Below, piece by piece: positions 9,769 through 25,695 of a DNA stretch of 64,000 nt. Position 1 is the first letter of the stretch. Every line of letters begins with the position of its first letter. Both the position numbers and the translations under genes were made by a program. The stretch is from contig NC_014363.1 of the NCBI RefSeq assembly GCF_000143845.1, forward strand, positions 124,001 through 188,000. Direction: 5' to 3'. Below the pieces are notes generated by a model, which was not told where the DNA came from, did no database searches, and worked only from the letters and a program-made list of their open reading frames with translations. Origin of the DNA: Olsenella uli DSM 7084 (GTDB lineage: Bacteria > Actinomycetota > Coriobacteriia > Coriobacteriales > Atopobiaceae).

Positions 9769-11343
9769 ATGGCCATGGAGCCCGAGGCCTGGACCATACG
9801 TCGCATGCTCGACTGGACCATCGGCTATCTCGAGCGGAGGTCCGACGGGCGACCCCGCCTCTCTGCGGAGTGGATGCTCTCCAACGTGACGGGCCTCAGC
9901 CGCGTCCAGCTCTACACCAGCTTCGATCGTCCGCTCTCTGCCGACGAGCTTGCGCGCATGCACGATGCGGTCGTGCGTCGTGGTGCCGGGGAGCCACTGC
10001 AGTACGTGACGGGCGAGATGCCGTTTCGACATATAGTCCTGCATTGTGAGGGGGGCGTGCTCATCCCGCGTCCCGAGACCGAGGTCCTGGTGGATGCCGT
10101 GCTCGCGCATGTGGACGTGGCCGCCGCAGCCGGCCATGACGCCCAGGTCCTCGAGGTGGGGACGGGAACCGGCTGCATAGCCTGCTCCATCGCGTCCGAG
10201 CGGCCGGGATCCCACGTCGTTGCCACGGACCTCTCGCCTGCGGCCGCTGCCCTTGCCATGCGCAACCGTGACGCCCTGGGGCTTGCCCGCGCGGTCGACG
10301 TCATCACGTGCGACCTCGCCTCGGGGGTTGACCCTGCGCTGAAGGGGACCTTCGACGTGCTGGTGTCCAACCCCCCCTACATCCCCTCGGATGTCGTGCC
10401 CACCCTGCCGCGCGAGGTCGTAGGCTTCGAGCCCCACCTTGCGCTCGATGGCGGTGCCGACGGCCTCGACGTCTTTCGCCGCCTGCTTGAGGTTGCACCG
10501 GACATGCTGCGTCCCGGCGGCATGCTCGCATGCGAGTTGTTCGAGACGAACGCGGAAGTCGCGGCCGAGCTCTGCCGTCGGCAGGGTGGCTGGGCTCGGG
10601 TGGAGGTCCGAGAGGACCTCACGCATCGACCACGTGTCCTCGTGGCCGTCCGCGAGGGCGACCTTGCGGCAGGGGGTGTCATGGTCCGGCCCCGCAAGCT
10701 GCTCGCGGTCGACCAGGACCGGCCGGAGCGCATGGTCGTCAGGGATGTCGCACGCGTCCTTCTCGATGGGGGCGTCATCGTGGTCCCCACGGATTCCGTC
10801 TATGGGATCGGGTGTGCGGCGACGCCGGGCAACCCAGGCCATGCCCGCACGTTTCAGATCAAACGCCGCGCCCTGTCCCAGACGCTGCCATGGCTCATCG
10901 CCGACGTGCAGGACCTGGAGCGCTTCGGCCACAGGGTGCCGAAGTGGGCCTACGCCCTCGCGCGGGAGTTCTGGCCGGGCGCGCTCACGCTGGTCGTGCG
11001 CGCAAGCCCACTGGTGCCTGCCGAGTACCGACGCTCGGACGACGGTACGATTGCGCTGCGCCTGCCCGACTCGAACCTGGTGCGCGAGATAGCGCGCGAG
11101 GTGGGTGCGCCCTTGGCGATCACCAGCGCCAACACGCACGGCGCCTCCTCCGCCACCAGCGGGGAGGGCATCGAGGGCCGCATCGCGGGCGAGGTCGACC
11201 TTGTGCTGGATGGTGGCCCGTCACCCCTCGCCGCCGCATCGACCATCGTGGACTGCACCGGGGCGGATCCGCGCGTCCTGCGGGAGGGGGCCATTCCAAG
11301 CGTGGGGATCATGCGTGTGGCGGACCCTGACGCCTGGGCGTAG
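9769..11343 (+). CDS. prmC-tsaC: Fused release-factor glutamine methyltransferase (PrmC) and threonylcarbamoyl-AMP synthase (TsaC/Sua5)
   Basis: One open frame of 524 codons carries two enzymes. Residues 1 to about 300 are PrmC/HemK, with the SAM-binding motif VLEVGTGTGCIACSIA near 125 and the catalytic SNPPYIP near 200; it methylates the GGQ glutamine of release factors. From about residue 310 follows a YrdC domain with VPTDSVYGIGC, KRRALSQTLPWLI and ITSANTHG. It makes threonylcarbamoyl-AMP for the t6A tRNA modification. In many bacteria these are separate neighbouring genes; here no stop separates them. An internal ATG at 10681, preceded by AGGGGG at close to ribosome-site distance, could also yield free TsaC. 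The gene starts two bases after prfA (an alternative start is ATG 9775). Confidence 0.9.
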   Translation: MAMEPEAWTIRRMLDWTIGYLERRSDGRPRLSAEWMLSNVTGLSRVQLYTSFDRPLSADELARMHDAVVRRGAGEPLQYVTGEMPFRHIVLHCEGGVLIPRPETEVLVDAVLAHVDVAAAAGHDAQVLEVGTGTGCIACSIASERPGSHVVATDLSPAAAALAMRNRDALGLARAVDVITCDLASGVDPALKGTFDVLVSNPPYIPSDVVPTLPREVVGFEPHLALDGGADGLDVFRRLLEVAPDMLRPGGMLACELFETNAEVAAELCRRQGGWARVEVREDLTHRPRVLVAVREGDLAAGGVMVRPRKLLAVDQDRPERMVVRDVARVLLDGGVIVVPTDSVYGIGCAATPGNPGHARTFQIKRRALSQTLPWLIADVQDLERFGHRVPKWAYALAREFWPGALTLVVRASPLVPAEYRRSDDGTIALRLPDSNLVREIAREVGAPLAITSANTHGASSATSGEGIEGRIAGEVDLVLDGGPSPLAAASTIVDCTGADPRVLREGAIPSVGIMRVADPDAWA

Positions 11344-11802
11344 AGCCCAGGGTCCGGGGACGGACGTCGATGGCGCCGCGGACAGCCCGAAGTGCGCATC
11401 GTCGGCGGCAGGACCATCGGAAGTGTGTGCCAGTGCACACCTCCAGAAATCTCAGCAAGCCCTGTACCTGCGGTGATGCCGAGAGTAGCGCGTCTGCCGG
11501 GTGCCAGGGGTCCCGGGGAGGCCAAAAAAGTACTCACTTCCAGGGGTGTGCGCCTCGGATGACCGGAAGCGTGCGCTTCTGCCGGCCGGAACTGCCGGCC
11601 GGAGTCGGCAGTTGGGAGCTGCGGCCTTCCTCCGCGCCGCACCCCTCCCGTCTGCCGTGCCATGTCCCTAATGCCCGCTGCCCGATGCCCGCAACGCCAT
11701 GGGAGTGCTGACGGGACCTTGGGTGATAGACTGCCAGAGGACATCACGTTCCTAGATGAGACCACGGAACCTCTAGCACCGTTCAGAGAAGGGACCTCGC
11801 GC
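11344..11802 (+). other. 459-base intergenic region with repeats and the rpiB promoter
   Basis: No gene is supported here. The region holds a small hairpin, GTGTGC-cagt-GCACAC (11425-11440). It also holds two adjacent copies of CTGCCGGCCGGA (11579-11590 and 11592-11603), part of a GC-rich inverted structure. At 11724-11732 TGATAGACT matches the extended -10 form seen before other genes in this window and probably drives rpiB. The rest shows no recognisable coding pattern. Confidence 0.5.
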
Positions 11803-12282
11803 ATGAAGATTGCCATGGCCTCCGACCACGCCGGCTTCGACCAGAAGCCCGCCCTGGTTGCGTACCTCGCCGGCCTCGGCCATGAGGTTGTCGACATGGG
11901 TCCGGCCTCGGCCGAGCGCTGTGACTACCCTGACTATGCCGACAAGGTCGCGCGCTACGTGGCGGCCGGCGGGGCCGAGAGGGGAATCCTCATTTGTGGC
12001 ACGGGCATCGGCATGGCGATCACGGCCGACAAGGTCTCGGGTATCCGTGCCGCCGTCATCCAGACGCCCCAGTTCGCCCATCTCTTTCGCGAGCACAACG
12101 ATGGAAACGTCCTGTGCATCTCGGGACGCTTCACGAGCCTCGCGACCAACAAGGAGATAGTCGACGAGTTTCTTGCCACCGAGTTCGGCGGGGGTCGCCA
12201 CGAGGGTCGCGTCGCAAAGGCCATGCGCGAGGACGATCCCGGTTTCCAGGGCGTGGGGGAGGATCCCATCCCCGTCCGGTAG
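11803..12282 (+). CDS. rpiB: Ribose-5-phosphate isomerase B
   Basis: A 159-residue RpiB/LacAB-family isomerase that interconverts ribose-5-phosphate and ribulose-5-phosphate in the pentose phosphate pathway. Visible motifs are the N-terminal ASDHAGF, the catalytic CGTGIGM (its cysteine near residue 66) and REHNDGNVL. The frame is open further upstream, but ATG 11803 gives the conserved N-terminus MKIAMASDHAG and has AAGGGA upstream. Its own promoter-like -10 lies about 75 bases before the start, and upp follows after a gap of 194 bases with its own -10. Cytosolic; the length is normal for the family. Confidence 0.92.
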   Translation: MKIAMASDHAGFDQKPALVAYLAGLGHEVVDMGPASAERCDYPDYADKVARYVAAGGAERGILICGTGIGMAITADKVSGIRAAVIQTPQFAHLFREHNDGNVLCISGRFTSLATNKEIVDEFLATEFGGGRHEGRVAKAMREDDPGFQGVGEDPIPVR

Positions 12283-12416
12283 CCACTGGGACGGGCTGCG
12301 AGGGGGAGTACGACCGTCAGCACCACGCGCCGCCGCGCCGTGGCGGGGGGTCCTCTGGTATCGGCCGTGCAGCTGCTCCTGCCGGGTGCGGCCCGCTTTC
12401 TCCCCGTAGTGCGATA

Positions 12417-12425
12417 CGGTAGAAT
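12417..12425 (+). promoter_or_regulatory. -10 element for upp
   Basis: CGGTAGAAT lies about 50 bases before the upp start. TAGAAT matches the -10 hexamer of glmM and glmS in this window. No clear -35 is visible. Confidence 0.4.
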
Positions 12426-12476
12426 CGGCCCGAATGACAGAGGGCGATGCACGCGAGCCGAGGAAAGGGATCCTGA

Positions 12477-13118
12477 ATGGAGTTTGACGAGAAGCGCCTT
12501 ACGGTTATCGATCATCCGCTGGTCCAGCACAAGCTGCATATCCTGCGCGACAAGTCAACGGGTACCAAGCAGTTCCGCGAGCTCGTGACCGAGCTCGCCA
12601 TCTTCGAGGGCTATGAGGCCATGCGCGACTTCCCACTCGAGGACGTCGAGGTGGAGACCCCGCTGGAGAGGACCGTCTGCAAGAAGATCTCCGGCAAGAA
12701 GGTCGCCATCATCCCCATCCTACGCGCCGGCCTGGGGATGGTCGAGGGCATCCTCGAACTCGTGCCCTCGGCTCGCGTCGGGCACGTGGGCATGTATCGT
12801 GACCCAACAACCCACGAGCCCCATCAGTACTACTGCAAATTCCCGGATGACATCGAGAACCGCATCTGCCTCATCGTCGACCCCATGCTCGCCACGGGCG
12901 GCTCGTTGACGGCTGCCATCCAGTTCCTGCGGGAGGCGGGCGTCAAGGACGTGCGTGCCCTCACGTTGGTGAGCGCGCCCGAGGGCGTCAAGACCGTGCT
13001 GGATTTCGATTCCGAGGTCCGTCTCTACACCTGTGCCCTTGACCGTCAGCTCAACGAGAGCGCCTACATCCTTCCAGGGCTGGGCGACGCTGGCGACCGC
13101 ATCTACGGCACGAAGTAG
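12477..13118 (+). CDS. upp: Uracil phosphoribosyltransferase
   Basis: A 213-residue salvage enzyme that joins uracil to PRPP, giving UMP. The PRPP-binding signature is visible as DPMLATGGSLTAAIQFLR near residue 135. The N-terminal DHPLVQHKLHILRDKSTG is typical, as is the C-terminal PGLGDAGDRIYGTK that shapes the uracil pocket. The ATG is preceded by a purine-rich AGGAAAGGGA. Single-gene transcription is likely: a promoter-like element lies just upstream and a structured 300-base leader of the next gene follows. Nothing unusual is seen. Confidence 0.95.
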   Translation: MEFDEKRLTVIDHPLVQHKLHILRDKSTGTKQFRELVTELAIFEGYEAMRDFPLEDVEVETPLERTVCKKISGKKVAIIPILRAGLGMVEGILELVPSARVGHVGMYRDPTTHEPHQYYCKFPDDIENRICLIVDPMLATGGSLTAAIQFLREAGVKDVRALTLVSAPEGVKTVLDFDSEVRLYTCALDRQLNESAYILPGLGDAGDRIYGTK

Positions 13119-13416
13119 ACCGGACGCGCACGATTCCGTAGGCGCACTCCAATAGATTGACGACATTCGTAGCGGCGAGGCCGTGCCTTGCCGTGTGGCC
13201 GTGCGTATCGCGATAATACGAAAGTCCTATCCCCCTGATGGCCCGTATTACTTTCTCAGGGGGAAGGGGACCGTGGCCTCGAAAAACCGTGAGTTCGGCC
13301 AATGTCGCTTTTCCTCCGAGCCGGATAGATTTGGCACCAATAAAGGCCTGTCGATCATCAGAGACGGTCGGCAGGCCGTGCCCGTTTATATCGGCAGGTA
13401 ACTTGAAGGAGGAAAC
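13119..13416 (+). promoter_or_regulatory. Structured control region before the glycyl radical enzyme gene
   Basis: About 300 bases without a gene. They hold a 10-bp perfect palindrome TATCGCGATA (13206-13215), within a wider AATACG/CGTATT inverted repeat. There is a CCCCCTGA / TCAGGGGG hairpin (13231-13238 with 13256-13263). A 12-bp stem starts GGCCTG at 13345 and closes with CAGGCC at 13377, counting two G-U pairs. A strong ribosome site GAAGGAGG stands just before the ATG. The palindromes are candidate sites for the regulators encoded downstream of the enzyme; the hairpins may be attenuators or the end of the upp transcript. Confidence 0.55.
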
Positions 13417-16053
13417 ATGGAGGAGTCTCTGGTTCTCGAGATGCTGCAGACCGGTAAGACGGCCACGTGGCCGGCAAAGAATCAGCTGCAGGAAAGCGGC
13501 GAGGTCGTCGACAAGGAGGTCAAGGGCACTCCTTCGACCGACCGCACCAGGCGCATGAAGGAACGCTTCATGAATGCCAAGTGCAAGATGGACATGGAGG
13601 CGCCCATCGCATATACCAAGGCATGGCGCGAGCATGAAGGCAAGCCGCTTTATGTCCGCAGGGGGCTTGCCTATAAGTATATGCTCGAGCACCTCACGCC
13701 GGCTATCCGTGAGGACGAGCTCATCACCATGTCCAAGACGCGCTATGACCGTGGTGCCACCCAGGTCCCCCAATTCGCCACTGACTTCATGATCTCCTTC
13801 CTCACCCAGGCCGAAGACCAGAAGGAAGAGGCAAAGCTGTATTCCGTCGAGGGCAAGGATGAGGCCCATACGGTCGAAGAGGAAGGGTGGACCAAGGTCG
13901 GCCAGCTGTTCTCCATCCGCGAGGAGGAGGTCAAGCCGATGCTTGAGGTCCTCGAGTATTGGAAGACGCGCTGCGTTGAGAACGTGTCCGACGATTGGAT
14001 GAAGACCTCCTTCCCCTACTACCAGGACTACGTCAACGCAAAGAAGGTCGGCCTCTTCCCGGGGTCGGGCCTGCATGCCGGCTGTGACGGCCGCTGGATT
14101 CCCGCCTATGACGTTGCCCTCGGGGGCCTCAACAGGGTAATCGAGGAGTGCCGCGAGAAGATCGAGAAGACCGTGGTGACCACCAAGGAGGTCGCCGACA
14201 AGGTCTTCTTCTGGCAAGGCTGCATCTATGCCTGCGAGGGCGCGATCGCCTGGGCCCACAACTATGCGGTCGAGGCCCGGCGCCTTGCCGAGACTGCGGT
14301 CGAGCCACGCAAGACCGAGCTTCTCGAGATGGCAGAACGCCTCGATCGCGTCCCTGCCGAAGCACCCCGCAACTTCATGGAAGCCGTCCAGGCCCTTTGG
14401 ACCACCCAGATCCTCGTCATCTCCGACTCCCTTGCCCTCGGCGTCTCCCCGGGCCGTTGGGGCAAGTTCCTTGAGCCTTATTACGAGAAGGATCTTGCCG
14501 AGGGGCGCATCACCAAGGGACAGGCCCTTGAGGTCATGGAGCTGCTCCGTATCAAATTCTCGACTGAGGAGTACATCACCCCGTCCCTCTGGGCGGCCAT
14601 GGCCTCCTCGAACTCGTTCATGAACCTTGCCGTTGGCGGCCTCGATCCCAAGACGGGCAAGTGCACCGACAACGAGATCGAGGACCTCATCCTCGAGGCC
14701 GGCATCAACATGCCCACCCCGCAACCGACCCTCTCGATCCTTCTCTCCGACAAGACGACAGACCATCTCGCCATCAAGGCCGCCGAGTGCACCAAGGCCG
14801 GCAACGGGTATCCCGCGTGGTTTAACTATGACATGATGGTCCAACACAACCTCGCTATGTATCGCGACGAGGGCATCACCCTTGAGGACGCCCGCAACTG
14901 TGCGCTCTCCGGCTGCGTCGAGAACGGCCTCGCCGGTACCGGTCACCCCATCGCCCACCCGGCCTTCTACAACGAGGGCAAGACCATCGAGCTTGCCTGC
15001 AACGAAGGCGTCGACCCCCGCACGGGCATCAAGGTCATGGATGGCATCGTCCCCATCAAGACGTACGAGGACCTTTGGGACAACTTCATCAAGATCCGCG
15101 AGCACTTCATGCATGTCTACATGCAGTACTGGAATGAGGTCGTCGCCTGCCAGCGCGACATCCACCCCAAGATCATGGGCTCCGTCCTCATGCATGACTG
15201 CATCGAGTCCGGCCGCCCGGTTGACAATCTCGGCTGCCGCTACAACGGTTCCGTCACGCTGCTCGACTCCGGTACAGTTAACGTGGTCAACGGTCTCGCG
15301 GCCATCAAGAAGCTCGTCTTCGAGGACCACAAGTACACTTGGGATGAGTTCAAGGAGGCCATGGACAATAACTTCGGTTTCGTGCTTGGTGCCGAGAAGG
15401 GCAACTTCTCCATGCTCAACCAGGAGATCGACCCTGAAAAGCACATGAAGTACGCCCATATCCACCGAGATGTCCTCAACGCACCCAAGTTTGGCAACGA
15501 CGATGACTTCGTTGACGACATCTTTGTCGACCTCTGGCATGACTACGACCGCGTTACCGCGTCCGAAACCACCTACAACGGCTACCGCTGGATCACCGCC
15601 GCGCTTTCCATATCCGCCCATGGCCCGCATGGTCGTGTGACCGGCGCTACCCCTGACGGTCGTCTCTCCGGAGTGACGCTGTGCGACGGCATCCTGTCCG
15701 CCTCGCCTGGCACCGACGTGAACGGTCCGATCGCCCTCATCCGCTCCGGCGTGAAGCTGGATCCGACCGAGTTCGCCTCGGTGCAGCTCAATATGAAGTT
15801 CCATCCGACTGCCATCCGCGGTGACGAGGGCTCGAGGAACTTCGTGGACTTCATCCACAGCTACTTCCAGATGGGCGGCTATCACGTCCAGTTCAACATC
15901 GTGGATTCGAAGATGCTGCGAGACGCCCAGGATCATCCGCAGAACTATCGCGACCTGATGGTCCGTGTCGCCGGCTTCTCAGCCTACTGGAACGAGCTCG
16001 GCAAACCCATCCAGGACGAGGTCATTGCTCGTACCGAGTACGACGCTCTCTAG
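13417..16053 (+). CDS. Arylacetate-decarboxylase-type glycyl radical enzyme, candidate indoleacetate decarboxylase
   Basis: An 878-residue glycyl radical enzyme. The thiyl/acid pair is in SGCVENG (C500, E502), and the glycyl radical loop is VRVAGFSAYW (G853) close to the C-terminus. The ending LGKPIQDEVIARTEY is that of 4-hydroxyphenylacetate decarboxylase (HPAD) relatives, not of pyruvate formate-lyase or choline lyase. By-eye alignment to C. difficile HpdB (recalled) puts its phenol-contacting His536 and Glu637 at Ala516 and Leu616 here. That argues for a substrate without a para-hydroxyl. HPAD also needs a small iron-sulfur subunit, and none is encoded nearby. Indoleacetate decarboxylase, which makes skatole and is known from Olsenella, fits best; phenylacetate is the alternative. 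The enzyme is cytosolic and oxygen-sensitive, and requires the activase at 17718-18665. Confidence 0.8.
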   Translation: MEESLVLEMLQTGKTATWPAKNQLQESGEVVDKEVKGTPSTDRTRRMKERFMNAKCKMDMEAPIAYTKAWREHEGKPLYVRRGLAYKYMLEHLTPAIREDELITMSKTRYDRGATQVPQFATDFMISFLTQAEDQKEEAKLYSVEGKDEAHTVEEEGWTKVGQLFSIREEEVKPMLEVLEYWKTRCVENVSDDWMKTSFPYYQDYVNAKKVGLFPGSGLHAGCDGRWIPAYDVALGGLNRVIEECREKIEKTVVTTKEVADKVFFWQGCIYACEGAIAWAHNYAVEARRLAETAVEPRKTELLEMAERLDRVPAEAPRNFMEAVQALWTTQILVISDSLALGVSPGRWGKFLEPYYEKDLAEGRITKGQALEVMELLRIKFSTEEYITPSLWAAMASSNSFMNLAVGGLDPKTGKCTDNEIEDLILEAGINMPTPQPTLSILLSDKTTDHLAIKAAECTKAGNGYPAWFNYDMMVQHNLAMYRDEGITLEDARNCALSGCVENGLAGTGHPIAHPAFYNEGKTIELACNEGVDPRTGIKVMDGIVPIKTYEDLWDNFIKIREHFMHVYMQYWNEVVACQRDIHPKIMGSVLMHDCIESGRPVDNLGCRYNGSVTLLDSGTVNVVNGLAAIKKLVFEDHKYTWDEFKEAMDNNFGFVLGAEKGNFSMLNQEIDPEKHMKYAHIHRDVLNAPKFGNDDDFVDDIFVDLWHDYDRVTASETTYNGYRWITAALSISAHGPHGRVTGATPDGRLSGVTLCDGILSASPGTDVNGPIALIRSGVKLDPTEFASVQLNMKFHPTAIRGDEGSRNFVDFIHSYFQMGGYHVQFNIVDSKMLRDAQDHPQNYRDLMVRVAGFSAYWNELGKPIQDEVIARTEYDAL

Positions 16054-16096
16054 CAAGCATCTCCGCGCTTGATCCCCTTGAGGATTTAGTGACTCG

Positions 16097-16131
16097 GGAG
16101 GGGAAGGTGCCTAGCGGGAACCTTCCCCTCC
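16097..16131 (+). other. Perfect 12-bp hairpin between enzyme and transporter genes
   Basis: GGAGGGGAAGGT (16097-16108) pairs exactly with ACCTTCCCCTCC (16120-16131) across an 11-base loop, 43 bases after the enzyme stop. No T run follows. It could protect the 3' end of the enzyme mRNA or reduce read-through to the transporter, either of which would give the enzyme a higher level than its neighbours. Confidence 0.65.
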
Positions 16132-16233
16132 GGTCTTGTACAGGACGCACGTCATGGACGTGCGCTCATGCGGCGCCCCTGCCGCTCCGTTGCCTTCATT
16201 TGTTTCATATCAAACGGCTAGAGGTGAAAAAAG

Positions 16234-17571
16234 GTGAATACGAATTCTGAGCATGACGCCGGAACCGCCAGGTTCTCCGGTTGGAGTGTGACCACTGCTG
16301 CCGTCGTCATTGTCCTCTGCCATATGATGGTGCGCGGCTCATTTGCCACGCTTATCCATGGCATGGTTGCCAGCACCGGTTGGTCCACCGGCGTCGTCTC
16401 GCTCGGCAGCTCCATCTTCATGGTCTTCTACGGGCTGTTTGCCTTCTTGACCGGTACGTATATCAACAAGCTGGGATGCAAGAAGACGTATCTGCTCCAC
16501 GGCTGCATAATGGCCCTCGGGCTATTCCTCTGCAGCTTCGCTCAGGAACCGTGGCAGTACTGGCTCTTCTACGGCGTTATCGCCGGTATCGGCTCTGGTG
16601 CGTTTTGGGCACCCGTCACCTCAATGGTCCGGCAGTGGTTCATAGACAAACTTGGCATCGCCATGGGTCTTACTACGGGTGCCGCCGGCGTTGCCATGTG
16701 CCTCGGCCCCATAGTGTCCATGAATCTCATCGCAGGCCAGTCATGGCAGACAATGATGAGGGTCTTCGCAATCATCCTGATCGTGGGCATCGGCGTTGCG
16801 TCGCAGTTCACCGTCATGAGGCCCGAGGAGGTCGGTCAGAAACCGCTTGGCTACGACGCCTTTATGGAGCGCCAGGCCCGCAAGGCGGCTGGTGGGGATG
16901 ATAAAAAGGCCGATGAGTTCTACGTGCCCTTCAAGTGGGCCGTTCGCCATAAGGCATTCTGGCTCCTTTCCCTCCTGTGGTTCTGCTCGAACTTCGCCGA
17001 GTTCATCGTCTTTTCCCATGCGATCAACTACACCACCACTGACTTGGGGTACGACAAAGTCCAAGCCACGTACATCTACTGCCTCATAGGTCTGGTCTTC
17101 ATCTTCAGCGCAATCGGCATCGGAGGCTTTACCGACAAGCTCACCAAGCGTCTCGGTGATCCACTCAAGGCCCGCAAGCGCGTTCTGACCGTCTCCTATA
17201 TAGGCTGCGCCGCCATGGCGCTCTGGCTCAACTACGGGGTCCGGCTCACTGCCGGTGGGGGAGAGACCATCTGGGCATTCATAGTCTATGCATTGGTCTT
17301 CGGCTTCTTCTACGGCATGTACATCCCGTCTGTGGCTGGCGTGGTGGGCGTAGTCTTCGGTCGTAAGGAGATGCCCCAGTGCTGGGGGCTCATCTCGCTG
17401 GTTGGCATGGCTGGCGGAGCAGGGCTCGGGCCGTATATCGCCGGCGCCCTCCGCGACGCCACGGGAAGCTACTTCGTGGCCATCTGGCTGGCTGTCGTTT
17501 TCTATCTGCTGGCATGCCTCTTCATGAACGTCGTCAGGCAGCCTTCGCGTGAGGAGGTCTGGGGTCGTTAG
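16234..17571 (+). CDS. MFS transporter, oxalate/formate-antiporter-like family
   Basis: A 445-residue integral membrane protein with about twelve hydrophobic helices and a polar central loop around residues 205-240, the usual major-facilitator plan. The conserved stretches GFTDKLTKRLGDP after helix 7 and GRKEMPQCWGLISL near helix 11 resemble carboxylate transporters of the OFA group. It starts with GTG; GAGGTG stands seven bases upstream. Because it lies between the decarboxylase and its activase, it probably imports the arylacetate substrate (or exchanges it for product) across the cytoplasmic membrane. That is inferred from context only. A perfect hairpin stands on each side of the gene. 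Confidence 0.85.
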   Translation: MNTNSEHDAGTARFSGWSVTTAAVVIVLCHMMVRGSFATLIHGMVASTGWSTGVVSLGSSIFMVFYGLFAFLTGTYINKLGCKKTYLLHGCIMALGLFLCSFAQEPWQYWLFYGVIAGIGSGAFWAPVTSMVRQWFIDKLGIAMGLTTGAAGVAMCLGPIVSMNLIAGQSWQTMMRVFAIILIVGIGVASQFTVMRPEEVGQKPLGYDAFMERQARKAAGGDDKKADEFYVPFKWAVRHKAFWLLSLLWFCSNFAEFIVFSHAINYTTTDLGYDKVQATYIYCLIGLVFIFSAIGIGGFTDKLTKRLGDPLKARKRVLTVSYIGCAAMALWLNYGVRLTAGGGETIWAFIVYALVFGFFYGMYIPSVAGVVGVVFGRKEMPQCWGLISLVGMAGGAGLGPYIAGALRDATGSYFVAIWLAVVFYLLACLFMNVVRQPSREEVWGR

Positions 17572-17586
17572 GGACCTATCTCATAT

Positions 17587-17625
17587 GGTCATGCCCAGGT
17601 AAAGAGTTGATACCTGGGCATGACC
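17587..17625 (+). other. Perfect 14-bp hairpin between transporter and activase genes
   Basis: GGTCATGCCCAGGT (17587-17600) pairs exactly with ACCTGGGCATGACC (17612-17625) across an 11-base loop, 15 bases after the transporter stop. No T run follows. It has the same loop length as the hairpin at 16097-16131 but a different stem sequence, so it is not a copy of that element. Confidence 0.65.
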
Positions 17626-17717
17626 CCATGTCGGAGTCGGGCCCTCTCGATGGGGGAGCCTCGAAAAAGAGACAGTCTACGTAGGGCATGTGGGTTTCGA
17701 AGGAAGTGAGCCGAAGC

Positions 17718-18665
17718 ATGGACGGCAAGGGCAAAGAGCTCAGGGCCGTGATTTTCGACGTGCAGAGCTTTTCTACGCATGATGGACCTGGGATCAGGAC
17801 GAACATCTTCTTCAAGGGGTGTGCGCTCAGGTGCCCTTGGTGCGCCAACCCCGAGTCGCAGAAGTTCAGCCCGCAGCTCCTTTACACAAAGATGAAGTGC
17901 ATAGGGTGCATGTGCTGTGCCAGGGCATGCCCCCATGGGGCCGTGACGGCCTATACTGCGCCAGAGGACATCGAGCGTTATGGACACGTACGGTATGACC
18001 GTGGCAAGTGTGATAAGTGCACCACGCATGAGTGCGTGGACGCATGCTTCCAGGAAGCCCTCGCCGTCTCCGGGAAGGAAATGACCGTCGATGACGTAAT
18101 GGATAAGATTCGTCGCGACTCTCCTGTCTTCCGGGGTAAGGGAGGCGTCACCGTATCCGGTGGGGATCCGCTGCTCTATCCTGAGTTCTTGGCCGAGCTG
18201 CTTGGTAGGTGCCGAGATGAGGGGTATAGCGTTGCCCTTGAGTCCGAGCTCTGCGTTCCCACGAGGAACCTCGAGACGGTCATGCCGTTCGTAAGCTACT
18301 ACCTTACCGACTGCAAAATTATCGACTCCGCCGAGCACCGCAGAATCACTGGTGTGGACAATGAGATCATCCTCAGGAACCTGCGCCTGATTGGCGATGT
18401 ATGCCCAGAGCGCATGTGCCTGCGCATACCGATCATACCTGGGTACACAGACTCCGACGAGAACGTTGGCGGTATCGCCGCGTTTGCCGCGTCGTGTCAA
18501 TTCACAAAGATAAACATCCTGCCGTATCACAAGCTTGGCGTGCCCAAGCACGAGCGCCTTGGCACCGTCTATCAGCTACCTCATGTCCAGCCACCCGACG
18601 ATGGGCATATGAGGCACTTGGCTGACGTCATAGAAGCCCATGGGATCGAGTGCGTTATCAACTGA
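17718..18665 (+). CDS. Glycyl radical enzyme activase (radical SAM)
   Basis: A 315-residue radical SAM protein that abstracts a hydrogen from the glycine of the partner enzyme, most likely the product of 13417-16053. The SAM-cluster motif is CALRCPWC near residue 35. It is followed by two ferredoxin-type clusters, CIGCMCCARACP and CDKCTTHECVDAC, as in activases of the HPAD, glycerol and choline enzymes; the pyruvate formate-lyase activase lacks them. GGVTVSGGDPLLYPEF is the conserved SAM-binding stretch. I chose ATG 17718, with AAGGAAGTG about ten bases upstream, over ATG 17688, which lacks a good site and would add ten atypical residues. Confidence 0.93.
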   Translation: MDGKGKELRAVIFDVQSFSTHDGPGIRTNIFFKGCALRCPWCANPESQKFSPQLLYTKMKCIGCMCCARACPHGAVTAYTAPEDIERYGHVRYDRGKCDKCTTHECVDACFQEALAVSGKEMTVDDVMDKIRRDSPVFRGKGGVTVSGGDPLLYPEFLAELLGRCRDEGYSVALESELCVPTRNLETVMPFVSYYLTDCKIIDSAEHRRITGVDNEIILRNLRLIGDVCPERMCLRIPIIPGYTDSDENVGGIAAFAASCQFTKINILPYHKLGVPKHERLGTVYQLPHVQPPDDGHMRHLADVIEAHGIECVIN

Positions 18666-18837
18666 TTGGACCTTGATGGACTGCCGGATTGGAGGAGCCA
18701 GGGACCATCGTCAGCAAGCACGGCGGCGGTAATGCCATCGAATGGCAAAGCCATTGAGGAGACTGTGGCGCCCGCCCATACGACACTTCGGAGACAATCA
18801 ACACCTCCTTAAACCTCTCGGCAATTGGAGCAGGTCG

Positions 18838-19575
18838 ATGTCGCATCTTGAGGAAAATTCATCGAGTGCAATGGCGAAACTGCAGCGCCTGCAAGACGAG
18901 CTGTCCCAGTTCTTCTCCATCAGCATCAGGATTCTCAGTCGGGATGACCTCAAGTCGCTCACCGTGGAATCCAATGGGCATACGCGTTGCCTGACAAACC
19001 GAGGGGCACATCCTGACATCTGCGAACGATTCATACTCAGGGTCATCGACCTAGATCCGGGTGACGTCATGGTCTCGATGTGCCCCTTCGGCCTGCTCAG
19101 CGCCATCGTCCCGCTTGGCAAGTCAATGTGGGCGGGCTTACATGAAGAGAAGGCTCGCTATTTTTTTCTCGCCGTGCACAATCCGGCGTATGAAGGGGCG
19201 GGTGGCGTCGAGGTCGAGCAGAAGCGCACGGTCACCTCGATCGTCAGTGGCATGGACCTTCATGACAAGATCGAGTTCGAGGAGAAGGTACGTCTTGTCG
19301 CGAGCGTATTCGATCTGGTCTTCTCGATCCTTACAGAACAGGAGCAGCAAGACCTCATTGCCACGGGTGCCGTCGGCATGGCAGAGCTGAGAAGGCTCAC
19401 AAAACGAGAGCGAGAGGTGATGCGCCTTGTGTGCGTGGGCATGTCGAACCAGCGAGTGGCCGAGGAGCTTTTCATCAGCGAGCATACAGTCAAGCTGCAT
19501 GTGAGCAGTATTCTCAAGAAGCTCAACCTTGCGAACCGGACTCAGCTGGCCATCTATGGGGCTAAGGTGCTCTGA
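18838..19575 (+). CDS. LuxR-type transcriptional regulator with N-terminal sensory domain
   Basis: A 245-residue DNA-binding protein. The C-terminal 60 residues are a LuxR/NarL helix-turn-helix ([18 protein letters not shown] then [19 protein letters not shown]). The first 170 residues look like a PocR-type ligand or redox sensory domain with spaced cysteines (HPDICERF, then [15 protein letters not shown]), but this assignment is tentative. There is no receiver domain, so it is not a classical response regulator. I chose ATG 18838 (GGAG nine bases upstream) over an upstream start at 18742 that would add an unlikely Arg/Pro-rich leader. It follows the activase and abuts the kinase gene with no gap. 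It probably controls the decarboxylase genes, by position only. Confidence 0.8.
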
Positions 19576-21549
19576 ATGAAGCAACGGAAGATATCCACAT
19601 ACTTCAATACGGGCATAACGTGCATTCTCGCGACCATCTTCATACTGGTGATCGTCATCGGTGTGTGGCTCGCCCGTGATTCGACCATAAGCAGCGTGGT
19701 TGCCCGTTTGGATGTCTGCCTGCAGACGGCATACGACCGTCTCGATCTTGAGGACGCCATCGGACGCGCGAGGCTTCTTGAGGTAATCGAATACGAAGGC
19801 GTGGCCTCACTGATCGAAAACAGTGACGTCTCGCAGTTGAGCCGCGTGCTTGAACGCTGCAAGTTCGATATGGGGGAGAGCTATGCGGTTGCCGTTGACT
19901 CCAACGGAACGGTGATCGCCAGCAACGTACATGTTGCGGGAAGCAGCTGGCCCCTCGCGTACCTGCTGGATTCCGTAAAGCAAGAGGGCGAGACGATAAC
20001 GACAACCGAAGTGATCGCCGCGGACAGGCTCAAAGACAGCCGTCAGTCACTGCGGGATGGAGCGCGAGTCATCATTGACCGAACAACGGCGAGAAGCCTG
20101 AATGATGCCTACGTGCACATTACCGTATGCCCCATATACAGCGGCGAGACCTTTGTCGGGGCCGTCGTCGAGGGCTATCTTCTCAACAACAACCATGAGT
20201 TCCCCACCGATTACACCAACGCCGTCCCAGGAACCTATCTCTCTGTGGGAACTACGGATGGGGTACGCATCTGTTCAAACATATCCTCCAATGGCTTCTC
20301 GTATCCTGCGGGAACCACCCAAAGGCGCGACTTCGTAGACGTCATCAACAAGGGAGGCATCTGGCGCGGGCAGGTATCCATGGTGGACGGTGGCGAAGGC
20401 GTCGTCGTTGCCGGCCCAATAACCGATTATTCCGGCCGAGTGATCGGCAACATCGGCGTAGGCTCGCCCATTTTCATGATCTCCGGTCTGTCCGCCAGCC
20501 ACTACGTCCTGTTTGTTCTCGTCGCGGCCGCGTTCTTCATATGCGCGGCCCTTTTGGGACGCAAGCTCACCGCCATGATCACACGCCCCATTTCCGATCT
20601 TCAGGATATCTCGCGGACCATCACCAAAGGGGAGCTGCCCTCCTCTGACATGCTTCGAAGCAGGTCGAGCGTGCCCTCGGAGATCGTCTCCTTGGCCGAT
20701 GACATGTATGTCATGGCCCGCAAGCTCACCGACAAGAACCAACGTCTTGAGGAGAAGGTGTCTGCACGTACCGCCCAGCTCGCCAATACGGTCGACGAGC
20801 TCAGGGCAGCCAACCGTCACAAGTCGCAGTTCCTGGCCAATATTTCGCATGAGCTGCGCACGCCGCTCAACTCAATCATCGGGTTCGCCTCTCTTCTCCA
20901 AGAGAATGTGGCGGGCGATCTGAACGCGACGCAGACGAGGTACGCAGAAATCATCATTGAGAGCGGGGGGCATCTCCTCGACCTCATCAACGACATCCTC
21001 CAGCTCGTAAAGCTCGACACAAGCGTTGACAAGCTCAAGCTCTCTCGGGTAAGCGTTATCGAGGCGATCAGGAACCCCGTCGATTTGATTCGTCCGCTTG
21101 CAGACGAGAGAGGGCAGGGACTCGAAGTCATCGTCGCGGACGAGCTGGATGGATACACGGCTTATTGGGATGAGCAGAAAGTCCATCAGATCCTGCTCAA
21201 CCTGCTTTCCAATGCGGTGAAGTTCTCCCCTGACGGAGGCCGCATCCGAGTCAAGGCCTCCCTTGTGGAGGAGAACTTTGTGTTCATACACGTCATCGAC
21301 AACGGCATCGGTATCAGCAACGACATGAAAGAGCGCGTCTTTCTGGCCTTCGAGCAAGCTGACAACAGCTATACGCGCATCTACAAGGGCGCCGGTCTCG
21401 GCCTTGCCATCACAAAGGACTTGGTCGAGATGCACAGCGGCCGCATTTGGCTTGAAGACGCGCCGGGGGGCGGCCTGGACGCATGCGTCGTACTTCCACT
21501 CTGCTCGAATAGGAAGCCTGACAAAAAGGATGGACAGGAGGCGGACTGA
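19576..21549 (+). CDS. Membrane sensor histidine kinase with extracytoplasmic Cache-like domain
   Basis: A 657-residue kinase. The first helix is at residues 13-33. An extracytoplasmic domain of about 270 residues with a Cache-like pattern follows (AVAVDSNGTVIAS, then VGNIGVG-type ends). The second helix is near 315-335, then a HAMP segment (TRPISDLQDIS) and a coiled stretch. The phosphoacceptor region is ANISHELRTPLNSIIGF, with His425. The ATPase domain has its N box (LLNLLSNAVKFSPDGG), the DNGIGIS box and GAGLGLAI. The Cache-like domain suggests sensing of a small molecule outside the cell. It starts right after the luxR stop and overlaps the response regulator by one base, so the two form a two-component system. 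Confidence 0.92.
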   Translation: MKQRKISTYFNTGITCILATIFILVIVIGVWLARDSTISSVVARLDVCLQTAYDRLDLEDAIGRARLLEVIEYEGVASLIENSDVSQLSRVLERCKFDMGESYAVAVDSNGTVIASNVHVAGSSWPLAYLLDSVKQEGETITTTEVIAADRLKDSRQSLRDGARVIIDRTTARSLNDAYVHITVCPIYSGETFVGAVVEGYLLNNNHEFPTDYTNAVPGTYLSVGTTDGVRICSNISSNGFSYPAGTTQRRDFVDVINKGGIWRGQVSMVDGGEGVVVAGPITDYSGRVIGNIGVGSPIFMISGLSASHYVLFVLVAAAFFICAALLGRKLTAMITRPISDLQDISRTITKGELPSSDMLRSRSSVPSEIVSLADDMYVMARKLTDKNQRLEEKVSARTAQLANTVDELRAANRHKSQFLANISHELRTPLNSIIGFASLLQENVAGDLNATQTRYAEIIIESGGHLLDLINDILQLVKLDTSVDKLKLSRVSVIEAIRNPVDLIRPLADERGQGLEVIVADELDGYTAYWDEQKVHQILLNLLSNAVKFSPDGGRIRVKASLVEENFVFIHVIDNGIGISNDMKERVFLAFEQADNSYTRIYKGAGLGLAITKDLVEMHSGRIWLEDAPGGGLDACVVLPLCSNRKPDKKDGQEAD

Positions 21550-22460
21550 TGAAGAAGATCCTGGTCGTAGAAGATGACCCTGCGAGCCTAACGCTTATTA
21601 CCGAAATCCTGAAGGGGTACGACTACACTGTGGTTTCCGCGCTGGACGGTCGGTCCGCGCTGGACGTGAGCAAGCGCGAGAACCCGGACCTCATCATCCT
21701 CGACGTGATGCTCCCGGCCCTTAATGGCTATCAGGTCTGCGAGCGTCTGCGCAGCATGTCCCAGTTTCGCAACACCCCCATAATCATGCTCACCGTCCTC
21801 AATGAGGATTCCCAGCGCATCCGCGCCCTTGAGGCCGGTGCCAACGGGTTCCTCAGCAAACCGTTCAAGCGCGTGGAGCTCCTCACGCGCATCAAGGCGT
21901 TGCTGTCGGCGCAGGTGAACTCCGACGAGATGGTCTCGTTGAACACGGTGATCTCCTCCATGCTCACAGCCCTTGAGCTTAGGTGCGCGGGCTCGACCAT
22001 GAGCAGCCGCCGATGCGCCGACCTTGCCGAGCGCCTGGCTGTGGTGATGGGCATTCCAAGCGGAAATGTCCGCGACCTGCGCAGGGGGCTCCTCCTCAGG
22101 GACATAGGCTACGTGGCTTGCAATGACGCGAGCGTTGCCGTCGAGAACAACTTCACGGCACATTCCGAGCATGCCATACGCAGCCTGCAGATCGTGGGCG
22201 CATTCGGTCATGAGATAATCGATGCGGTGGTGCGCTACCACCACTGCACCCTGCAGAGCGAGGACTATCCCGCAAATCTCAATACGGAGGTCCTTGCATG
22301 CGTCAAAGTCGCCATCGTATGCACTCGTCTCGAAGGACTGCTCTACGGAAACGAAGGCCTTTCGGTGCAGGCCGCATGTGCGACACTCACGAATGAGGTG
22401 TCGGCGGGCCTTCTCCCGTCCGAAGAAGTAGCCTTCGTCACGCGCCTCATCTCCACATAG
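21549..22460 (+). CDS. Response regulator with a degenerate HD-GYP output domain
   Basis: A 303-residue protein. Residues 1-120 form a receiver domain with acidic pocket E8/D9/D10, phosphoacceptor D52 in LIILDVMLP, and the conserved T and K in MLTVL and SKPF. The rest resembles an HD-GYP phosphodiesterase (TALELRC, SRRCADLAERLAVVMG, AVVRYHHC). The catalytic HD pair is replaced by R184-D185 in LLRDIGYV, and the DGxGYP segment is lost (SEDYP). It has no DNA-binding domain. It is therefore probably a protein-interaction or sequestering output rather than an active cyclic-di-GMP hydrolase. It is translationally coupled to the kinase (TGATG). Confidence 0.85.
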   Translation: MKKILVVEDDPASLTLITEILKGYDYTVVSALDGRSALDVSKRENPDLIILDVMLPALNGYQVCERLRSMSQFRNTPIIMLTVLNEDSQRIRALEAGANGFLSKPFKRVELLTRIKALLSAQVNSDEMVSLNTVISSMLTALELRCAGSTMSSRRCADLAERLAVVMGIPSGNVRDLRRGLLLRDIGYVACNDASVAVENNFTAHSEHAIRSLQIVGAFGHEIIDAVVRYHHCTLQSEDYPANLNTEVLACVKVAIVCTRLEGLLYGNEGLSVQAACATLTNEVSAGLLPSEEVAFVTRLIST

Positions 22461-22518
22461 CCACCAAAGAAAGGTGACCTGACTCGTATGGGCGATCGTC
22501 TGCCAAGGGAGTGAAGAG

Positions 22519-23541
22519 ATGGTAGCTTGCTTTTCCGATGCGCCAGCTGATGCCGCGTGGACGGCAGGTGCTGATGTCGACTGCGACTTGGGCAAGGCCG
22601 TAGGCATGGAGCTTTCCGAACGGCTCTGGAGAGAACTTGTCGCTCCCCAGATCGAGCGGGAAATTCCCGGCGTGACCAGTCGTGTCGCGGTGGGCAGGGT
22701 CGGGGAGGGCTCTGAATGCTGGGGCACAGACGACGTGCTCTCACGTGATCATGATTGGGGGGCGGGGTTGTGCCTGTGGGTATCCGACGATGTCGTAGGC
22801 GCGTCAGAGCGCGAGCGGATGGGGGCCCATGTCGCTCGACTCGTAGCGCAGGCGCAGAAGACCTGCGACTATCCCGTGCTCCCCTTTGCGGGTCCACGGC
22901 TTGGCATCTTTGAGACGGGTGAGTTCTACCGACGCTTTATCGGATTGAATCATGTCCCGGCATCTATGGACGAGTGGCTGGCGACCCCCGTATATGGGCT
23001 GGCGGTCGCCGTCAACGGCCGCGTGTTCTCCGATGGACCGGGAAGGTTCACCGACTTTCGCAACGCGCTGACCGACGAGTGCCCGCAGGACATCTTCTTG
23101 CGAAGGATGTCAATTGACGCCTTTGGGGCAGGTCAGGCAGGACAATACAACCTGCTTCGCGCGCTTAAGCGGGGAAACGTGCCGACAGCCGAACTCATGC
23201 GCAGCTCCTTTTTGGTATGTGCGCTGCGCCTTCTGTTCTCGTTGAACGGGCGGCACTATCCGTTCAACAAATGGCTGTACCAGAAGGCCGGGCAGCTTCC
23301 TGGGGCGCATCCGCTCTGCCTTCGCATAGGCCAATTGGCCAAAGTGCATCTGGACGGAGACGATGCGCTCCTTCGCTGCGCTGATTTGGTCGACGAGATA
23401 TGCGAGGCGCTCCTAGTCGCCTTCGAGTGCCACGGGCTACCGCGCGCCAACGACGGCTTCTTGGTTAGCGAGGCGGAGGGGCTGCACGAAACGATAGGCG
23501 ACGCAACAGTGGCGTCCCTGCCCTACATGATGGCACGATAG
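22519..23541 (+). CDS. DUF4037 protein, nucleotidyltransferase-like
   Basis: A 340-residue protein with the DUF4037 pattern: GEGSECWGTDDVLSRDHDWG near residue 65 resembles the GS...D.D active site of minimal nucleotidyltransferases. The helical C-terminal half contains NGRHYPFNKWLYQ. The N-terminal 25 residues are acidic and Ala-rich. AAGGGAGTG lies eight bases before the ATG. The neighbour is a DUF4125 protein, and the two families are commonly found together; their joint role is unknown. It begins 58 bases after the response regulator and could be read through from that operon, but no functional link is evident. Confidence 0.8.
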   Translation: MVACFSDAPADAAWTAGADVDCDLGKAVGMELSERLWRELVAPQIEREIPGVTSRVAVGRVGEGSECWGTDDVLSRDHDWGAGLCLWVSDDVVGASERERMGAHVARLVAQAQKTCDYPVLPFAGPRLGIFETGEFYRRFIGLNHVPASMDEWLATPVYGLAVAVNGRVFSDGPGRFTDFRNALTDECPQDIFLRRMSIDAFGAGQAGQYNLLRALKRGNVPTAELMRSSFLVCALRLLFSLNGRHYPFNKWLYQKAGQLPGAHPLCLRIGQLAKVHLDGDDALLRCADLVDEICEALLVAFECHGLPRANDGFLVSEAEGLHETIGDATVASLPYMMAR

Positions 23542-23615
23542 CATCAAGTGCGCAGGCAGCGGGCATTTTTGGCTACGAGGAAGAGGGCTAACGCTTACAT
23601 CGGCGAGGGGGAGAG

Positions 23616-24272
23616 ATGGAAGGAAGTAGGGACGAGGCAATGCGGCAGACGCTCATCGCCGACATCGAATGCATGGAATGGGACATGTTCTCCAGCGTCA
23701 ACAACATTGGGGGCAAGGCCGACTGCCAAAACGATCGCGACCAGTTCTCGGTCATGCGGGAGGCGTCGTATGCGACATGGACCTCGGAGATGCTTGAAAG
23801 CTATAAGGGTGACCTGGAGCGAGCGGCATCCCAGGGCGTAAACCTCATGAGTGAGAAATATGCCCGCATGATGGAGGTAACCATGCCCGGTGCCATCGAC
23901 ATGCCCCCGCTGCCCGATGCCCGCAGGGCGCTCATGGATGAGGCGATGGGCATTGTCATGCCGTGGGAGGAGGAGCTGTACGAGAGGTACGCACTCTTGC
24001 GACACCGTGCGCGCAGCCTTACGCAGGCATCTGAGGATGGGAGCGCGATTTCGGGCACGGCCTTCGATACCTATCTATACGGAGAGCTCTCCATCTATTC
24101 TGAGCGCACGCTTCGTCTGTATGTCGAGCACCTGCGCATGCAGAGGGCAGCGGGGACGAACGGGAGCATGGCGGTTTACGACAGGATGGCTCGCCTGCAG
24201 GGATGGGCCTCGTTCGATGCTGCCGACAAGGATTTCCGCAAACGCATGACAGAAGAAAACCATGCAGGGTAG
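23616..24272 (+). CDS. DUF4125 family protein
   Basis: A 218-residue, mostly helical, acidic protein with no membrane segment. The N-terminal motif CMEWDMFSSVNNIGGKADCQ, followed by QFSVMREASYATW, is characteristic of DUF4125. The C-terminus carries the conserved aromatic-rich stretch ELSIYSERTLRLYVEH. GGGGGAGAG precedes the ATG at 23616. The family usually sits beside DUF4037, as here. No enzymatic motif is obvious, and no function is proposed. Confidence 0.75.
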   Translation: MEGSRDEAMRQTLIADIECMEWDMFSSVNNIGGKADCQNDRDQFSVMREASYATWTSEMLESYKGDLERAASQGVNLMSEKYARMMEVTMPGAIDMPPLPDARRALMDEAMGIVMPWEEELYERYALLRHRARSLTQASEDGSAISGTAFDTYLYGELSIYSERTLRLYVEHLRMQRAAGTNGSMAVYDRMARLQGWASFDAADKDFRKRMTEENHAG

Positions 24273-24565
24273 AAGGCACTCGAGCGACGGGCCTGGCGTC
24301 GCATGCGGATTGGTAAGGAAAAGACTGTCGGACGGAGGTGGAGGCTGCCCGCGCTTTAAATGCGATGTGCCTGCTGCCCTGTGGTATCGCCACACCGGCC
24401 TCGCATTTTCTAGCACTTTTGGCGGCAAGCGCTATACTTGCGAACATGTGATTGCGGAGTGGCTCTTGCCCGGCTGGTTCCCCAGTCATATGATGCCGTG
24501 TGCAAAATGGATTACGTCTGCTGACAGAGATGGATTGCTGTGACATTCTGGGGGGATGATCTTTA
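24273..24565 (+). promoter_or_regulatory. Leader region of the ATP synthase operon
   Basis: No gene is seen in these 293 bases. TATACT at 24433-24438, preceded by an AT-richer stretch, is the best -10 candidate for the atp operon, about 130 bases before atpB. A matching -35 is not clear. No atpI-like gene is present between this promoter and atpB. Confidence 0.35.
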
Positions 24566-25363
24566 GTGAACCCGCTTGACAAGCTCTCAGGGGAGATGGA
24601 CGAGCTGCTCGAGGGCTTTATGTCCCATGCCATCGTGGGTGACACGACCGTTGGCCTCACCAACTACATCTTCTGGATGTGCGTTGCGCTGGCGCTCCTG
24701 CTCGCCTGTGTCCTCATGTTCAAGAAGAGGCAGGCGCGCGGCCTGGTTCCGCAGGGCATTTTTGTGAACGGCATGGAGTACGTCGTCGAGTTCGTTCGCG
24801 ATGACATGTGCAAGTCCATCCTGGGCGACACCTGGAAGAGGCACTTCCCCTTCCTTGCAGCCATCTTCTTCTTCATCGTCTGCAACAGCATCGTGGGCGT
24901 CATCCCTGGCTGCCATCCCGGTACGGGCACCATCGGCGTCACTGCCGCACTCGCCTTCTGCTCCTTCACCTACTTCATCGTAGTCGGGTGCAAGCGTATG
25001 GGCATCCTAGGCTACATCAAGAGCCTTGCGCCCAAGGGCGTGTCGTTCCCCATGAACGTGCTCGTTTGGGCCATCGAGCTCGTCTCGACGTTCCTGCGTC
25101 TCATCACCCTCGCCGTTCGACTCTTTTGCAATATGTTTGCAGGCCATGTCGTCATGGGCACCTTTGCCATCCTTGCGTCCCTCTTTGTCGAGCCGCTCCT
25201 GCAGGGCTTCTCGGCGGCCGCCCTGGGACAGGCGGGCGCCTCTGTCTTCTGGGTCGTTCTTCTGATCATTATCTATCTGGTCGAGATTCTCGTCGGTATC
25301 ATCCAGGCGTACGTCTTCACGCTACTCTCGGCCGTCTACATCCAGCTTGTCGAGAGCGAGTAG
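24566..25363 (+). CDS. atpB: F1Fo ATP synthase subunit a
   Basis: A 265-residue membrane subunit that forms the two proton half-channels beside the c-ring. About five to six hydrophobic helices are visible. The essential arginine is in the helix read as FLRLITLAVRLFCNMFAGH, and the C-terminal helices include LVEILVGIIQAYVFTLL. It begins with GTG; GGGGGGA stands about eleven bases upstream. First gene of the atpBEFHAGDC operon. A separate atpI gene, often present upstream, is absent in this window. Confidence 0.95.
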   Translation: MNPLDKLSGEMDELLEGFMSHAIVGDTTVGLTNYIFWMCVALALLLACVLMFKKRQARGLVPQGIFVNGMEYVVEFVRDDMCKSILGDTWKRHFPFLAAIFFFIVCNSIVGVIPGCHPGTGTIGVTAALAFCSFTYFIVVGCKRMGILGYIKSLAPKGVSFPMNVLVWAIELVSTFLRLITLAVRLFCNMFAGHVVMGTFAILASLFVEPLLQGFSAAALGQAGASVFWVVLLIIIYLVEILVGIIQAYVFTLLSAVYIQLVESE

Positions 25364-25457
25364 GACTGATCGATTGGCTAACTGCGGGGCCACGCCCGCT
25401 GTTGCATAGCAAGTCATGGAACTCGTCCTGCTAGGGGCGAATGACAAAGGAGGAAAC

Positions 25458-25652
25458 GTGGGAGTCATTGGTTACGGTCTTGGTGTTATCGGTGCTGCTA
25501 TCGGCATTGGCCTGGCGGCCTATGGCGCCACCACTTCCATGGCGCGTCAGCCTGAGGTCCAGGGTCGCCTCTTTACGACCTTCATCCTTGCGTCGGCTTT
25601 CGTCGAGGCGCTGGCGCTCATCGGCTTCGTCGTTACGCTCATCGCCTCCTAG
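25458..25652 (+). CDS. atpE: F1Fo ATP synthase subunit c
   Basis: A 64-residue hairpin of two helices that makes the rotor ring. The first helix is glycine-rich (GVIGAAIGIGLAAYG), the polar loop has RQPE, and the ion-binding carboxylate is the Glu in FVEALALIGFV. The residue after this Glu is Ala, which lacks the Ser/Thr side chain of sodium-type rings and suggests proton coupling. I chose GTG 25458 because AAAGGAGG stands five bases upstream. An ATG at 25416 would add 14 residues that do not fit the family. Confidence 0.93.
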   Translation: MGVIGYGLGVIGAAIGIGLAAYGATTSMARQPEVQGRLFTTFILASAFVEALALIGFVVTLIAS

Positions 25653-25695
25653 GGATTTGCCTGTACACGGCGAGCACCATATGTTGGAGGAACCC

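Follow-up and report, generated by a model that had tools for sequence, protein, structure and literature searches.

Indoleacetate decarboxylase operon and adjoining regulator genes in Olsenella uli DSM 7084

Skatole is a compound of faecal odour, and Olsenella uli is an oral bacterium. Skatole is toxic to the lung and contributes both to boar taint and to the odour of manure; the gene for indoleacetate decarboxylase (IAD) has been proposed as a marker gene for its producers (PMC6181972). The compound is formed through decarboxylation of indoleacetate in O. uli and O. scatoligenes, unlike in those clostridia that use tryptophan as the starting compound (PMC4767918). IAD is a glycyl radical enzyme; the enzyme of Tractidigestivibacter (Olsenella) scatoligenes (Os IAD) was described by Liu et al. 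(2018), who listed O. uli DSM 7084 among the carriers (PMC6181972), and the enzyme of O. uli DSM 7084 itself (Ou IAD) was expressed by Fu et al. (2022; PMC9248008). A further described relative is 4-hydroxyphenylacetate decarboxylase (HPAD, HpdBC; structure 2y8n and ten HPADs of Coriobacteriales), which has the superfamily, the Cys, Glu1 and Gly residues and the arylacetate chemistry in common with IAD, and differs by its small subunit HpdC, by Glu2 and by a His aligned with A516 in the pocket. Here we describe the IAD locus in a window of 64,000 nucleotides, i.e. positions 124001-188000 of the single-contig genome of O. uli DSM 7084 (2,051,896 bases, as published for the chromosome; PMC3035265), and the three regulator genes that adjoin it.

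The indoleacetate decarboxylase operon

We regard the identity of the locus as practically certain: it is the operon for indoleacetate decarboxylase in O. uli DSM 7084. The initial annotation of this DNA, which had named it a candidate IAD locus from the letters of the sequence, read the locus correctly, as borne out by the family model, the tree and the published assay given below, but the enzyme is not new, since it has already been characterised and published.

The operon comprises three genes on the forward strand, at the places where they had been annotated: the IAD gene (13417-16053; 878 amino acids), a gene for an MFS transporter (16234-17571; 445 amino acids; PF07690), which has the equivalent position in all four IAD loci considered here, and the gene for the IAD activase (17688-18665; 325 amino acids). 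The decarboxylase scores 1765.7 bits in the NCBIfam model for indoleacetate decarboxylase (NF033718; cut-off 1100), and the activase scores 478.1 bits in that for indoleacetate decarboxylase activase (NF033719; cut-off 425). The activase carries a CX3CX2C motif, a radical S-adenosylmethionine (SAM) domain (PF04055) and a ferredoxin-like domain (PF00037), in agreement with its annotation as a multi-cluster enzyme. The annotated catalytic residues C500, E502 and G853 are exactly placed, and the eight residues of Fu et al. that were checked (R226, W392, F401, C500, E502, H514, L616 and G853) all have identical numbers here. The enzyme is 89% identical to that of T. scatoligenes, the value reported by Fu et al. 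for Ou IAD versus Os IAD (PMC9248008). In strain, residue numbers and activase pairing it is the same as Ou IAD, and no difference from the published description was found (PMC9248008). A maximum-likelihood tree that comprises 22 glycyl radical enzymes (PhdB, AAD and the clostridial IADs not among them) places it with the enzymes of T. scatoligenes, Collinsella bouchesdurhonensis and contig UBA2090 (support 100/100), and the ten HPADs stand on a separate side of the IAD branch (100/100).

The recombinant Ou IAD, together with its activase, converts indoleacetate to skatole stoichiometrically, with a kcat of 11.8 per s and a Km of 0.10 mM (PMC9248008). The G853A, C500S, E502Q, F401A and L616E variants and the R226 variants were without skatole formation, and the H514A variant had a 66-fold lower kcat and a 70-fold higher Km (PMC9248008); by these published mutants, Glu502, Arg226 and Phe401 are needed, and His514 less strictly so. 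A cryo-electron microscopy structure at 2.8 Å, in which O. uli IAD has its substrate indoleacetate bound, has been announced (PMC12585387).

In the published scheme, the activase generates a radical on Gly853 with the help of SAM, which was shown directly, and the radical would then move to Cys500; both residues were found to be required, and for the transfer between them the mechanism accepted for the superfamily is adopted. The Cys500 thiyl radical most probably abstracts a hydrogen atom at the alpha carbon of indole-3-acetate, upon which CO2 would leave and the product would regain a hydrogen to give skatole. This hydrogen abstraction, as opposed to a Kolbe-type start, is the authors' reading of isotope effects, D2O exchange and modelling (PMC9248008). 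The MFS protein was proposed by Liu et al. as an arylacetate importer (PMC6181972), and probably imports indoleacetate; this candidate role fits the use of indoleacetate, not tryptophan, as the starting compound in O. uli and O. scatoligenes (PMC4767918).

Nothing was found that speaks against the identity of the enzyme; two qualifications apply to this account. The match of the open reading frame (ORF) to Ou IAD rests on the genome length of the strain, residue numbering and percent identity and not on a deposited sequence, because the main text of Fu et al. gives no accession; and the hydrogen-abstraction mechanism is supported and not proven, the results with methylated analogues being inconclusive according to the authors (PMC9248008).

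The best match among solved structures (phmmer) is an HPAD (2y8n, 499 bits), with which the enzyme has the Cys, Glu1 and the C-terminal tail in common (GKPIQDEVI.RTEYD, an HPAD-like ending already pointed out in the initial annotation). These features speak for a variant HPAD making p-cresol, a reading that we judge exceedingly improbable. The enzyme scores 686.9 bits in the HPAD model NF033715, far under the cut-off of 1150, and shares 33.3-36.7% identity with the ten HPADs of Coriobacteriales (33.1% for Ou IAD and the HPAD of C. scatologenes according to Fu et al.; PMC9248008). HPAD Glu2 (E637), which takes the phenol proton, is replaced by L616, as annotated, in the phmmer alignment to 2y8n as well as in the MAFFT alignment, where Glu stands at this position in 10/10 Coriobacteriales HPADs. 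The HPAD His aligns with A516, likewise as annotated, in 10/10 sequences with MAFFT, and in the phmmer alignment H536 lies in a two-residue insertion directly after A516 (the numbers E637 and H536 were counted by hand along the printed phmmer alignment, and the O. uli HPAD row of the MAFFT alignment, 877 amino acids, begins at a script-chosen start codon). A phmmer search of window positions 11001-26000 with the HpdC-like protein of O. uli as query (E limit 1e-4) found no HpdC-like ORF, which upholds the annotated lack of a small subunit. The enzyme lies outside the HPAD group in the tree, with neither the His nor the Glu restored in the alignment; O. uli has a separate HPAD with HpdC at genome positions 1162844-1165534, which scores 1660.7 bits in the HPAD model; and Os IAD is reported to have no activity on p-hydroxyphenylacetate (PMC6181972). 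HPAD identity was rejected, with score, Glu2, HpdC and tree all against it. Also rejected were the choline, hydroxyproline and sulfopropanediol glycyl radical enzymes, all far under their NCBIfam cut-offs; the NCBIfam scan gave no placement in a distant family of the choline or isethionate lyase type.

The initial annotation had further held that both substitutions make the pocket non-polar. This stands for Leu616 in place of Glu637, but is incomplete, because His514, two residues before A516, was overlooked and gives the pocket polarity close to the indole ring. Both His514 and Leu616 are invariant in the four aligned IADs (MAFFT), and both are described as residues of IAD in Liu et al. (PMC6181972) and Fu et al. 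(PMC9248008). A less polar ring would suit Leu616, and the same type of reaction is known for phenylacetate decarboxylase (PhdB) and arylacetate decarboxylase (AAD; PMC9248008); that the enzyme is a phenylacetate or general arylacetate decarboxylase has hardly any probability in our view, as Os IAD is reported to be without detectable phenylacetate activity (PMC6181972) and the kinetic constants of Ou IAD given above were obtained for skatole formation (PMC9248008).

Regulator genes adjoining the operon

Directly downstream of the activase gene of the IAD operon, on the same strand, stand three regulator genes (18742-22460): a LuxR-type regulator (18742-19575; PF00196) with an N-terminal domain that is possibly PocR-like, a sensor histidine kinase with a dCache_3 sensor domain (19576-21549; PF14827, PF00512, PF02518), and a response regulator with a receiver domain (PF00072) and a C-terminal part without Pfam match (21549-22460). 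Orthologues of all three adjoin the IAD gene in 4/4 IAD loci, the window included; the three other loci came from a contig scan with one query protein, an approach limited to close relatives. The trio is downstream on the same strand in O. uli and UBA2090; in T. scatoligenes and C. bouchesdurhonensis it lies upstream, in divergent orientation. The T. scatoligenes locus, which has the same order of IAD, MFS and activase genes, thus differs from that of O. uli in the place of the trio, and also by an additional TPR gene 3' of the activase. Identities to the window proteins for UBA2090, T. scatoligenes and C. bouchesdurhonensis, respectively, are 61%, 35% and 36% (LuxR), 70%, 48% and 47% (kinase), and 78%, 60% and 55% (response regulator).

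Among the matches listed in a search of 297 Coriobacteriales genomes (a subset of a larger group, with mostly up to three glycyl radical enzyme, eight LuxR and four kinase candidates scored per genome), an IAD above cut-off was found in three, namely O. uli itself and the genomes corresponding to T. scatoligenes and C. bouchesdurhonensis; these are not three independent events, because the genomes are related. Among the same listed matches, LuxR matches starting before residue 150, and so extending into the N-terminal domain, and kinase matches starting before profile position 285 were found solely in these three genomes, beside IAD. Strictly speaking, the sensor domains are not peculiar to IAD loci: in genome G225 an HPAD-side LuxR matches that of the window beginning at residue 152, and weak matches (29-35 bits) to the sensor domain of the window kinase are present in the kinases of three HPAD loci (L075, L078, L079).

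PocR domains are predicted to sense growth substrates (PMC1592074). The window LuxR matches Pfam PocR (PF10114) with 17.2 bits, below the cut-off of 23.9 (E 0.0044), and the model matches 4/4 IAD-side LuxR orthologues when a lax threshold (E up to 5) is applied, the best match having E 0.0015. Comparison of the N-terminal profiles of IAD-side and HPAD-side LuxR proteins (hhalign) gave a probability of 33% and E 0.00045 over 76 columns, and a profile of the HPAD-side N-termini matches 1/4 IAD regulators at E 1e-3, the window protein not being that one. An AlphaFold model of the LuxR protein from four sequences was poor (mean predicted local distance difference test score 59; N-terminal blocks mostly <70). 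The IAD-side LuxR proteins thus match PocR less well than the HPAD-side ones scanned, and for them the label PocR-like is a suggestion. The gene at 18742-19575 is a candidate for an indoleacetate-responsive regulator.

The surroundings of IAD genes were compared with those of 15 HPAD genes and 20 other glycyl radical enzyme genes, the latter chosen by hand, and not at random, from the listing of the 297-genome search. Within 8.5 kb, a LuxR-type gene was found at 4/4 IAD, 12/15 HPAD and 0/20 control genes, a response regulator at 4/4, 13/15 and 1/20, and a kinase at 4/4, 4/15 and 1/20, respectively; many flanks are shorter than 8.5 kb (2.4 kb upstream in the window; downstream 1.6 kb in L069, 2.6 kb in L080 and 0.9 kb in L095), and near-identical HPAD loci (e.g. 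L069-L072; L073, L074, L076 and L077) are not independent. The HPAD calls rest on the NCBIfam model for four of the 15 genes (4/4 over cut-off) and on similarity plus an HpdC match for the rest; an HpdC match adjoins all 15. One of the four HPAD loci counted for a kinase (L061, also among the 13 with a response regulator) has a weak kinase match of 74 bits. The three HPAD loci without LuxR, that of O. uli included, form one subclade of the tree.

That the three genes are unrelated neighbours which exert no control over the operon is unlikely in our estimate, though it deserves some weight. Their placement varies between the loci, and an alignment of the four IAD upstream regions, in which common bases lie mainly at the ribosome-binding site, yielded no defensible operator. 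On the other hand, the trio is kept together in 4/4 IAD loci despite rearrangement, full-length relatives of the LuxR and kinase are confined, among the matches listed, to the three IAD genomes, and LuxR genes accompany most HPADs and none of the control genes. We favour control of the operon by these genes: the LuxR protein, the kinase and the response regulator would probably switch it on when indoleacetate is present.

In the text of the papers searched, no description of regulators beside IAD or HPAD was found. Neither Liu et al. nor Fu et al. use the terms LuxR, histidine kinase, regulator or two-component in the main text; the neighbourhood figures of Liu et al. may show the genes. The regulator trio may be the sole part of the locus that is undescribed.

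Spacers, base composition and related loci

A strong hairpin is predicted in the IAD/MFS spacer (16097-16131, + strand; fold z -3.80 for 16094-16233), and another, with a 15-bp stem, in the MFS/activase spacer (17587-17625, + strand; fold z -3.65 for 17572-17687); neither is followed by a U-run. Hairpins occur in both spacers of all four IAD loci (8/8 spacers; window, L006, L007 and L008), with z <= -3.3 in seven and -1.25 in the remaining one; for L006 and L007 the spacer ends assume gene starts as in the window and not those of the longest ORFs. Their places are alike, and their sequences unlike, between the two locus types. They are possible message-processing or attenuation elements, and may determine how much enzyme is made relative to activase.

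The six genes from IAD through the response regulator have 55.8-60.1% G+C, versus 62.6% for the window and 64.7% for the genome (PMC3035265); the two genes 3' of the response regulator have 61.5 and 59.1%. The low G+C content of the six genes fits a lateral gain of the cassette, and does not prove it. Two genes, with DUF4037 and DUF4125 domains, lie directly 3' of the regulators (22519-24272).

The HPAD gene of O. uli (L061:5842-8562; genome 1162844-1165534) is accompanied by genes for HpdC, an activase, an MFS protein and TPR proteins; 4-Hpd genes of O. uli were reported by Li et al. (2016). Because of this HPAD with HpdC in the genome, O. uli may make p-cresol, too. In the HPAD loci L068-L079, LuxR and response regulator genes are found together (12/15 loci), and three loci (L075, L078, L079) add a histidine kinase. 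All four HPAD-side LuxR proteins that were scanned, out of 12, have a PocR domain over the Pfam cut-off, and the one kinase scanned (L078) has single-Cache sensor matches.

A further glycyl radical enzyme (L066:7144-9825; the same order, G007:C30) stands between IAD and HPAD, scoring below the cut-offs of both models (IAD, 826.2 versus 1100 bits; HPAD, 922.1 versus 1150 bits). It branches beside the HPADs on a long branch and has Trp at the L616/E637 position. There is no HpdC match on its 11-kb contig, and no LuxR, kinase or response regulator gene alongside (0/1), the gene lying near the contig end. By its sequence it is a candidate for another arylacetate decarboxylase.

Possible control of skatole formation

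The enzyme question at this locus is settled. As to when the bacteria switch IAD on, the regulator module offers a modest lead. In the wider reading, for and against which we see the evidence as evenly poised, the arylacetate decarboxylase loci of Coriobacteriales would carry their own substrate-sensing control: a PocR-like LuxR protein, a Cache kinase and a response regulator would move with IAD as a cassette and turn on the formation of skatole when they sense indoleacetate outside the cell, and a PocR-LuxR protein beside most HPADs would act likewise for 4-hydroxyphenylacetate. If this is true, induction by indoleacetate would be explained by a sensor module of the operon's own, which may be a possible handle to reduce skatole in livestock.

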